41,759 bases of DNA from an uncultured Nitrospirota bacterium (GTDB taxonomy: Bacteria > CG2-30-53-67): NCBI GenBank assembly GCA_947259355.1, contig CAMYMF010000022.1, positions 5,591 through 47,349 on the forward strand. Reading direction: 5' to 3'. Made by a program: the position numbers and the translations under genes. Positions 1,850-3,406 of this stretch are shown piece by piece. Positions within the stretch are counted from its first letter, which is position 1. Every line of letters begins with the position of its first letter. Under the pieces are notes generated by a model, which did no database searches, had not been told where the DNA came from, and worked only from the letters and a program-made list of their open reading frames with translations.

Positions 1850-1938
1850 CGCTCCTGCGCTGCCCTCCGGAGCGCCGCGTGCCCCGCTTTGCATCTCTAT
1901 GCCGCCTGTGGCGGCAACATATCAGGGAATCTTGGGGT
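1850..1938 (-). repeat. tRNA-Ser-associated two-hairpin module, copy A
   Basis: Read on the minus strand: box ACCCCAAGATTCC (1938-1926), 10-nt spacer, hairpin 1 GCCGCC-ACA-GGCGGC (1915-1901), a 26-nt linker containing AAAGCGGGGCACGCGG, then hairpin 2 with stem CGCTCC/GGAGCG (1874-1869 with 1855-1850) and a 13-nt loop, followed by GGTAAG. It then runs directly into the duplicated tRNA-Ser 3' end. Strongly similar in linker and hairpin 2 to copy D. No plausible protein is encoded across it, and function is unknown. Confidence 0.7.
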
Positions 1939-1946
1939 GCGCTTTC

Positions 1947-2037
1947 GCTTCCTTCACTCCGTTGCGGAAGCCCGCGCGTCCCCCCTTACTTCATCCTTGC
2001 CGCACAAGGTGGCAACAACACTAAGGAATCTTGGGGT
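1947..2037 (-). repeat. tRNA-Ser-associated two-hairpin module, copy B
   Basis: Minus strand: box ACCCCAAGATTCC (2037-2025), 11-nt spacer, hairpin 1 GCCAC/GTGCGGC-type stem (2013-1999, extendable by two A-T pairs, one G-U), 27-nt linker with AAGGGGGGACGCGCGG, hairpin 2 stem GCTTCC/GGAAGC (1971-1966 with 1952-1947) with a 13-nt loop, then GAAAG. It abuts the box of copy A. Stem sequences differ from the other copies but pairing is maintained. Confidence 0.65.
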
Positions 2038-2061
2038 CGAACCTCCGAAGCTTGACTTTTC

Positions 2062-2154
2062 CCCGCCTTCTGCTCCGCTTCCGGCGGGCCAGTCGCCCGC
2101 TTAACGTTTACTCATGTAGCCTCCGGCTACTCTGACATCAAGGTATCTTGGGGT
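2062..2154 (-). repeat. tRNA-Ser-associated two-hairpin module, copy C
   Basis: Minus strand: box ACCCCAAGATACC (2154-2142), 11-nt spacer, hairpin 1 GTAGCC-GGA-GGCTAC (2130-2116), 27-nt linker containing TTAAGCGGGCGACTGG, hairpin 2 stem CCCGCC/GGCGGG (2088-2083 with 2067-2062) around a 15-nt loop, then GGAAAAG. It is the copy closest to tRNA-Ser(GGA), about 77 bp beyond its CCA end. The stems differ from A, B and D at several paired positions. Confidence 0.68.
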
Positions 2155-2231
2155 CTCACCCTCCCTCCCGAATCTGAAGGATGCCCCTGACCTTCTCGAC
2201 ATCATCACACGCCATAGCCACAGCCAACCGA

Positions 2232-2319
2232 TGGCGGAGAGGGAGGGATTCGAACCCTCGGTAGCTTTCACTACACACGATTTCCAGTCGTGCACCTTCG
2301 GCCTCTCGGTCACCTCTCC
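2232..2319 (-). tRNA. tRNA-Ser (anticodon GGA)
   Basis: An 88-nt class II tRNA with encoded CCA. The acceptor stem is GGAGAGG pairing with CCTCTCC, the anticodon loop is CTGGAAA within the stem ACGA/TCGT, there is a long variable arm (GTAGTGAAAGCTAC), and the T arm GAGGG-TTCGAAT-CCCTC. GGA reads UCC/UCU. The gene starts 37 nt after the tadA stop and is probably co-transcribed with it. Its last ~20 nt recur at 1819-1841. Confidence 0.97.
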
Positions 2320-2356
2320 AGGCCATTTCACGGCGGCCCCCCGATCGGCTCCGCCC

Positions 2357-2920
2357 CTATTTCGGCAGGGTCGCCGCATCCTTCAGGCCCCCCGACGGTT
2401 CGATCCCCCTGGAGCGTCGGGTTGCGAAGAATTCACGCAGTAAACCGGCGGCCTCATTCTGCAGAACCCCTCCTGTGACATTCACCCGGTGGTTGAGACG
2501 CCAATCCTGAAGAATATGATATTCCGACCCACACGCGCCCCCCTTGCGGTCCGGTGTCCCGAAGACCAGGCGAGCCAATCGGCTTTGAATCATGGCGCCG
2601 GCACACATGATGCAGGGCTCGAGCGTCACATAGAGGGTGACATCCGAGAGCCTCCACTGTCCCAATTTTGCAGCGGCCTCCCGTAGAGCAAACATTTCAG
2701 CGTGAGCCGTCGGATCCGCTGTCGACTCCTTCCGGTTCCATCCGGTGCCGACAATCCGCCTGGCGGCGACTGCCACCGCTCCGACGGGGACCTCTTCCAC
2801 GGCGTAGGCCATTCGAGCTTGCTCAAGGGCGAGTGCCATGAAGTGCCGATCCCGTCCGCGCGAAATGTGCTCCGCGCCGTTGAAATCGTTCCGGCGGATA
2901 TGCCACTTCTTTTCTGCCAT
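2357..2920 (-). CDS. tadA: tRNA-specific adenosine deaminase TadA
   Basis: Zinc deaminase converting A34 to inosine in tRNA-Arg(ACG), needed to read CGU/CGC/CGA codons. The 187-residue product has the deaminase motifs HAE (zinc ligand H73, catalytic E75) and PCIMC (C103 and C106, remaining zinc ligands), plus the N-terminal HFM-ALEQA...EEVPVGAV segment. Length is close to the family norm with a slightly long N-terminus. ATG at 2920 has a Shine-Dalgarno-like AGGGA only a base or two upstream, so the exact start is uncertain; M28 (2839) would cut into the conserved first helix. Its substrate tRNA-Arg(ACG) lies 198 nt upstream on the same strand, and tRNA-Ser(GGA) follows 37 nt downstream. Confidence 0.95.
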   Translation of the reverse strand: MAEKKWHIRRNDFNGAEHISRGRDRHFMALALEQARMAYAVEEVPVGAVAVAARRIVGTGWNRKESTADPTAHAEMFALREAAAKLGQWRLSDVTLYVTLEPCIMCAGAMIQSRLARLVFGTPDRKGGACGSEYHILQDWRLNHRVNVTGGVLQNEAAGLLREFFATRRSRGIEPSGGLKDAATLPK

Positions 2921-3076
2921 TTCCCTGTGTCCGGAGATAGGCCTGCGTTGCGGCAGCAGAAAACGAGTAAACGGCCATCAGAGCACACGCCCCGACATAA
3001 GCGTAAGAGGAGCCCATTCTATGTCACGGGGGCCATGTTGTCAATGTCGATTTTGGAGGGACCGCCTTCCGTTGGG

Positions 3077-3105
3077 CGGCGAAAATTTCGCCGTTCTCAA
3101 ACGGC
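3077..3105 (-). other. Overlapping inverted repeats just 3' of tRNA-Arg
   Basis: The near-perfect palindrome CGGCGAAAATTTCGCCG (3077-3093) overlaps a second hairpin GCCGTT-CTCA-AACGGC (3090-3105), within 15-40 nt downstream of the tRNA-Arg CCA end. The two are mutually exclusive folds. There is no U-run after them, so a standard intrinsic terminator is not supported; a 3'-trailer processing structure is possible. Confidence 0.4.
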
Positions 3106-3117
3106 ATGGGGTAAGTC

Positions 3118-3194
3118 TGGCGCGCCCAGCAGGATTCGAACCTGCGACCTTTGGATTCGTAGTCCAACGCTCTATCCAGCTGAGCTATGGGCGC
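3118..3194 (-). tRNA. tRNA-Arg (anticodon ACG)
   Basis: A 77-nt tRNA with encoded CCA. Acceptor GCGCCCA/TGGGCGC, D arm GCTCAGCTGGATAGAGC, anticodon stem TTGGA/TCCAA with loop CTACGAA (anticodon ACG), T arm GCAGG-TTCGAAT-CCTGC. A34 is the substrate of TadA, whose gene lies immediately downstream on the same strand. Confidence 0.97.
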
Positions 3195-3293
3195 GATTTC
3201 ATGTAAAAGCTTCGGTGCGTCGTGAGTGCTTGTCCGTGCCCCCCTCTTCCTTTAGCGTTCACCCTGCGGCCTTCTACCTTCAGCCTTCCTTGA

Positions 3294-3307
3294 GGAGAGA
3301 GAGGGAT
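3294..3307 (-). repeat. Partial duplicate of the tRNA-Ser(GCU) 3' end
   Basis: GGAGAGAGAGGGAT on the plus strand is identical to 3495-3508, the acceptor/T-arm 3' part of tRNA-Ser(GCU). The copy matches the sequence of its own upstream tRNA rather than the GGA version, which has GGAGAGGGAGGGAT. It closes off module D just as 1819-1841 closes off modules A-C. Confidence 0.6.
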
Positions 3308-3316
3308 GACACTTAC

Positions 3317-3406
3317 CGCTCCTGCGCTGCGCGTCGGAGCGCCGCGTGTCCCGCTTTCTCTATCTATGCTGCCTGCGGCAGCTTCCCCATTTCGGTATCT
3401 TGTGAT
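3317..3406 (-). repeat. tRNA-Ser-associated two-hairpin module, copy D
   Basis: Minus strand: degenerate box ATCACAAGATACC (3406-3394), 11-nt spacer, hairpin 1 GCTGCC-GCA-GGCAGC (3382-3368), 26-nt linker ending AAAGCGGGACACGCGG, hairpin 2 stem CGCTCC/GGAGCG (3341-3336 with 3322-3317) with a 13-nt loop, then GGTAAG. It lies downstream of tRNA-Ser(GCU). Between the tRNA and the box is a T-arm-like stretch (3418-3436, GGGTTCGAATCCC core). Confidence 0.68.

Follow-up and report, generated by a model that had tools for sequence, protein, structure and literature searches.

Several copies of one folded repeat beside the tRNA-Ser genes of an uncultured Nitrospirota bacterium raise the question of what this repeat might be: a structured RNA with a function, a mobile element, or a passenger carried by other elements. 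The window (the whole stretch of DNA analysed, 41,759 nucleotides) derives from a MAG of 3.1 Mb in 94 contigs that is ~90% complete and is called G000 here. The order on the minus strand is serS, tRNA-Ser(TGA), tRNA-Ser(GCT), copy D, tRNA-Arg(ACG), tadA, tRNA-Ser(GGA), copies C-B-A, the large SRP RNA, and dnaX, where the names serS, tadA and dnaX were assigned from reading the translations and tRNAs were called by ARAGORN. The original prediction placed four copies, A to D, on the minus strand of this region, and all four were found at those positions by a covariance model with scores of 60.6-92.6 bits. These core copies lie within larger, tRNA-derived units that resemble the RtT repeats of E. 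coli, and the parts of the locus are as follows.

1820..1842, minus strand: AATCCCTCCCTCTCCGCCATCGG, duplicated 3' end of tRNA-Ser(GGA), closing the unit after copy A; repeats the tRNA-Ser(GGA) 3' end near 2230-2252
1840..1938, minus strand: core copy A, with P1, hairpin 1 and long hairpin 2 (covariance model R1, 89.1 bits; alignment)
1939..2037, minus strand: core copy B, with degenerate hairpin 1, abutting A (R1, 60.6 bits)
2037..2043, minus strand: GGTTCGA, remnant of the T-arm 5' strand directly before copy B (sequence)
2053..2154, minus strand: core copy C, with a GACT/AGTC-type hairpin 2 (R1, 83.0 bits)
2155..2170, minus strand: left arm CGGGAGGGAGGG plus TGAG of the RtT-like unit holding C-B-A; complementary to the 3' arm, with an 11-nt paired run
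2232..2319, minus strand: tRNA-Ser(GGA), intact, upstream of unit C-B-A (ARAGORN)
3294..3307, minus strand: ATCCCTCTCTCTCC, duplicated 3' part of tRNA-Ser(GCT), closing the unit after copy D (sequence)
3307..3406, minus strand: core copy D (R1, 92.6 bits)
3410..3419, minus strand: left arm GAGGAGAGGG of the unit holding copy D (sequence)
3491..3584, minus strand: tRNA-Ser(GCT), intact, upstream of unit D (ARAGORN)
3691..3776, minus strand: tRNA-Ser(TGA), with no unit after it in the window; units follow it in the relatives G001, G003 and G005 (ARAGORN)

At the Rfam gathering score, copies A to D have no match. Relaxed matches in the window (sX4 and plastid families) overlap tRNA or tRNA antisense and were set aside. 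The plastid families RF04351 and RF04354 score on tRNA antisense at window positions 3494-3548 and 2235-2284 of the plus strand, and these two models probably hold tRNA antisense sequence.

A covarying fold

The module, as the repeat is called hereafter, is ~70-100 nt long and folds into P1, hairpin 1, and a hairpin 2 made of a base stem and an optional distal stem. Both hairpins had been predicted; the two helices missed were P1, in which the ACCCC box meets GCGGGG, and the hairpin 2 base stem. P1 joins positions 2-5 of the ACCCC box to the GGGR of AAGCGGGR, and its outer pair in 42 copies is C-G in 24, U-A in 12, and A-U in 1. Each of the six pairs of hairpin 1 has at least one two-sided change among these 42 copies. 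The claim that every hairpin 1 stem meets its exact complement was too strong for copy B, which forms about four of the six pairs. The base stem of hairpin 2 (4-5 bp) occurs in eight paired sequence forms (ACGC/GCGT, GACT/AGTC, GTCT/AGAC, ATGC/GCAT, GGCT/AGCC, ACAC/GTGT, GCGC/GCGC, and GTGC/GCAC), and all six pairs of the distal stem show double changes in 29 long copies. This distal part is optional, and a short form of ~70 nt ends in ACGC-GAA-GCGT. In four short modules of genome G004 (L216, L217, L245, L246), the 3' strand of hairpin 1 is enlarged by an additional structured insert of ~47 nt that is nearly identical in all four.

Pairs were counted on the named structures in copies drawn from six genomes, with slid and shuffled alignments as controls. 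For P1 and hairpin 1 in 42 copies, 94.5% of cells pair and 39 cells are double changes, whereas the shuffles give 8.8 and the slid alignments no more than 5; with hairpin 2 added, the 29 long copies yield 80 double-change cells versus 24 in shuffles. These counts are not independent events, since related copies share history, and chance has little room because many alternative pairs occur in unrelated subfamilies. The excess of paired changes over both controls indicates that the fold of the module is under selection, as had been judged probable. The prediction had also been staked beforehand on the existence of further copies and on compensatory stem changes, and both were found.

A repeat family of one bacterial family

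The repeat had been described as having four copies. The covariance model detects 23 in G000 and ~190 over the six available genomes of the family (23, 67, 13, 12, 46, and 29 per genome), and none in two class-mates or in three other bacteria. An exact pattern has 13 matches in G000, of which about ten are true copies, and its reversed-pattern control has 0. The repeat-bearing relatives include 'uncultured Nitrospirae bacterium FCS_M_CG2-30-53-67' and 'bacterium Dive96_bin10.193'. A genome-wide scan of GTDB species returned two MAGs of the family and three single matches in unrelated genera; the latter are near the chance level and were not accepted as true copies. Likewise, the 52 matches to a looser pattern in viral contigs are at about the chance level by arithmetic. 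In these searches, the repeat family is confined to one bacterial family.

The proposed tie to tRNA-Ser genes is specific, the T-loop of units derived from tRNA-Ser being where the module is placed, but it holds for only ~20 of the ~190 copies (counted from model matches and loci read). Most copies are located away from tRNA-Ser, either in the TTGAACCC minisatellite or in several unrelated inverted-repeat elements, namely MITE iii and the elements v, w and x. MITE iii has the ends AGTGGTCCTGTTCGTAAATA and a CTTAG-like target duplication. Elements v, w and x differ in arm sequence and share a layout of a long closing stem, a GGCGTAC hairpin, the module, about six bases, and the closing strand. 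For the hairpin element v (CTGAGGAATGAGGCGTAC..GGACTTTTTACGAAGCCGTC), an exact pattern gives 35 matches in G002 and 10 more in G004 (L266-L285), and most of those read are without the module. The w carrier of G000 contig C51 and the minisatellite carrier of contig C48 are missing at the orthologous intergenic sites of the sister genome G001, and therefore carriers turn over as well as modules.

Other features of the carriers can be recorded here. Some MITE iii copies in G000 and G001 (L037, L069, L072, L073) are nested in another inverted-repeat element with the ends TAACCCGGATATTGCATGAGT / ACTCATGCAATATCCGGGTTA, and one G004 copy of v is interrupted by a coreless MITE iii. The coreless v hairpin was not confirmed as common in Deltaproteobacteria; of 290 genomes searched with an exact pattern, G002 and G004 alone have it. 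A decayed module 5' end (L247 position 701, G004:C104) runs straight into an apparent glmS start (ATGTGCGGTATC..), which suggests a carrier abutting a coding start.

Empty and filled sites

The insertion point is A^AY, typically YGA^AY, and takes the form TTCGA^ATCC in tRNA T-loops. The module stands between two As with C or T next, and duplication never extends beyond one ambiguous A. An uninterrupted target is seen in several coreless copies of v, in a copy of iii (L270), and in another repeat (the L100 flank versus L059). The v hairpin is empty as GCAGCGCAACGCCGCAG and filled as GCAGCGC, then ACCCC..GCGTA, then ACCTGCAG. MITE iii is empty as GGAGCGGAACGCAG (L270) and filled as GGAGCGG, ATCCC..GACA, and ACGCAG, and a dispersed repeat of G005 is empty as CCATTTGAATTTAC (L100) and filled as CCATTTGA, CCCC..GTGTA, and ATTTAC (L059). 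In G001, the T-loop of tRNA-Ser(CGA) is interrupted at L090 540-715 and 1539-1733, and an intact copy (846-934) lies beside them. Judged from these pairs of sequences, insertion is clean, with target bases neither lost nor duplicated.

Units derived from tRNA-Ser

At the serS-dnaX locus, the module lies within T-loop-interrupted 3' halves of tRNA-Ser. A unit consists of a left arm (e.g., AGAGAGGGAT), usually TGAGA, a short hairpin ending in GGTTCGA, the module, AATCC, and the remaining tRNA 3' end with CCA. The 3' ends match nearby tRNA-Ser genes, and the left arms are complementary to the tRNA-Ser 3' half. Pairing between the left and 3' arms extends over 9-11 nt in most units, a length of 9 nt being reached in 13% of trials of a shuffled control; it falls short of this in the two tRNAs that are interrupted but whole, in G004, and in a few further units. 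The closing stem is minihelix-like and ends in GCCA in several units. Composite units have a second module, of the GACT/AGTC type, after TGAG. The TGAGAA segment may be an altered TTCGAA, because G004 and the unit of copy D in the window keep TTCGAA at that place.

Units follow tRNA-Ser(GGA) and tRNA-Ser(GCT) in the window, and the start of one follows tRNA-Ser(TGA) in G005. In G003, a unit with a 3' end identical to that of the tRNA before it stands after most tRNA-Ser genes, and G001 has two complete tRNA-Ser(CGA) genes split in the T-loop by the module with an intact copy adjoining. No unit is called as a tRNA gene by ARAGORN, that is, none has an uninterrupted cloverleaf, and for the two interrupted copies of tRNA-Ser(CGA) cmscan reports just a weak match to part of a tRNA. 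An attachment site of an integrative element at tRNA-Ser was rejected, since every unit copies the 3' end of the particular tRNA that precedes it and the intervening DNA is just a few hundred bases long. In a search of 386 genomes, the TGAGAA..GGTTCGA pattern is at about background level outside the module's family; among 24 such loci checked from other genomes, one has a tRNA, and it is not adjacent.

Sub-threshold matches to the Rfam family sX4 (RF02223) cover tRNA-Ser together with the left arm downstream of it, terminating at TGAGA (L105 2931-3089, L105 2534-2714, L090 843-1009). The sX4 family may, as this hints, consist of a tRNA-Ser joined to the beginning of an RtT-like unit.

A proposed mobile module and its alternatives

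The explanation we favor, with a probability of roughly 0.6, is that the repeat is a non-autonomous mobile module, selected for its fold and moved in trans by a putative enzyme, which also seeded the RtT-like units. P1, hairpin 1 and hairpin 2 would bring the two ends of the module together, and movement would act on this folded single strand. The most likely candidate for the mover is a trans-acting HUH enzyme (Y1, of the IS200/RAYT type). The module would enter A^AY sites, and its spread appears to have taken it into a number of inverted-repeat elements of other kinds. The units of the tRNA-Ser cluster would stem from its entry into the T-loop of spare tRNA copies, and the broken copies would then have decayed into palindromic RtT-like units, giving a presumed order of tRNA duplication, insertion, and decay. 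The compensatory change in all helices, the ~190 copies limited to one family, the empty and filled sites, the carrier elements polymorphic between sister genomes, and the likeness to RtT all speak for this explanation, under which the bare module would itself be mobile. Against it, no autonomous version was found, Y1 transposases are present in all eight genomes, equally so in the two class-mates that lack the module, and RtT matches stay below the Rfam cut-off, with none on the units of the window. A search of 30 loci around Y1_Tnp genes in the eight genomes revealed no flanking module, with one core ~1.1 kb away in a minisatellite context. Similarly, 26 loci with the 5' box were read in search of an autonomous copy divided by cargo genes, and none has a gene between the ends; neither a transposase with module ends on its two sides nor any matching autonomous element was found.

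It also counts against a mobile module that carrier elements, and not the module itself, could have multiplied most copies. An immobile module might have been captured a few times by MITEs (the TIR elements iii, v, w and x) and by the minisatellite, and then amplified and moved by their transposases. Most copies do sit in recurrent carriers with inverted repeats of their own, including iii with its target duplication, and G001 lacks the w and ii carriers in their entirety at the orthologous sites. However, the module occupies at least five unrelated contexts, several of which have exact empty sites at the identical A^AY point, tRNA T-loops included, which leaves passive capture unlikely, if deserving of serious attention. 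A REP/BIME element moved by a RAYT transposase seems less probable still. These genomes all have RAYT-like Y1 genes, the repeats are small, palindromic, intergenic and high in copy number, and 16 of 31 short copies have GTAG two bases ahead of hairpin 1. This tag, whose patchy occurrence also weighs against the favored explanation, is rare in long copies (GTAT is the commonest among 75 long copies), the Y1 genes are without flanking copies, and two hairpins with a closing helix differ from a single palindrome of 20-50 nt. Neither a conserved tetranucleotide tag at the hairpin foot nor a RAYT gene flanked by the repeat was seen, and the module is not filed as a REP because about half of even the short copies lack the tag.

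An RNA role has been supposed for E. coli rttR, and the module and tRNA-linked units might similarly be transcribed with the tRNA-Ser operon, their fold serving some function as RNA. The covarying stems, the single orientation after tRNA genes, the minihelix-like closing stem, and the likeness to RtT RNA would all fit. Yet copy number ranges from 12 to 67 between relatives, copies lie in unrelated repeats, G002 has the same tRNA-Ser cluster with no units detected, and which tRNAs have a unit differs between relatives; a functional RNA is accordingly the explanation to which we give the least credence.

The repeat is abundant and structured, its stems covary strongly, its empty and filled sites are exact, and its target rule is clean, all in an uncultured lineage. 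The enzyme of the mobile module, if one is found, would be an inserter guided by structure and needing only a short target.

Comparison with known systems

REP/BIME elements, which are mobilized by TnpAREP (RAYT), are small palindromic intergenic repeats that are non-autonomous and have a Y1 enzyme in the genome (PMC8266576, PMC3733652). The module is like them in each of these respects; unlike them, it has no invariant GTAG/CGTC tag and no REPtron, and has three covarying helices and precise A^AY insertion. Several carriers resemble MITEs in being inverted-repeat elements, one with a CTTAG-like target duplication, whereas the module itself lacks both terminal inverted repeats and target duplication. 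The single-strand transposition of IS200/IS605 offers a parallel in clean insertion without duplication and in hairpins near both ends, although no transposase with matching ends was found and no strict tetranucleotide precedes every copy.

The RtT repeats of E. coli are little understood, and their purpose and origin are unclear; our literature searches on rttR/RtT gave nothing useful. The RtT model (RF00391) aligns end to end with units of G003 and G001 at 26-30 bits (best 30.5), relative to an Rfam gathering score of 45; no match reaches 45 bits, and the units of the window give no RtT match. The RtT-type layout (downstream of a tRNA, with its 3' end repeated, a complementary left arm, and a T-loop insert) is found in most units of the window, G001, G003 and G005, with G004 and the whole interrupted tRNAs as exceptions. 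The statement that no family has this description stands for the module itself, and the tRNA-linked units share the architecture of RtT repeats. This likeness may reflect either common descent or convergence via a shared mechanism. Insertion of modules into T-loops of duplicated tRNAs would be a testable origin for the E. coli repeats. A broader proposal, which we regard as doubtful, is that a single general process gave rise to the RtT-like units of distant phyla: folded single-strand modules would enter hairpin loops, chiefly the T-loops of tRNAs, at A^AY and leave the target unduplicated; E. coli rttR would then be a fossil, and the two-hairpin module a current or recent active example.

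RtT/rttR differs from the present units in following a tRNA for Tyr and not Ser, and in an insert that is unrelated in sequence and, unlike the module, not known to be dispersed. The E. coli K-12 tyrT sequence, read directly, is GGGGAAGGATGAGAAGCTTCGACCAAGGTTCGA, the insert, and AATCCTTCCCCCACCACCA. As in the tRNA-Ser units, the repeat follows a tRNA gene and its 3' end is identical to that tRNA, CCA included. Also shared are a left arm (GGGGAAGGAT) complementary to the tRNA 3' end, TGAGAA, GGTTCGA, a hairpin-rich insert, and AATCC, with the insert placed at the identical point of the T-loop.
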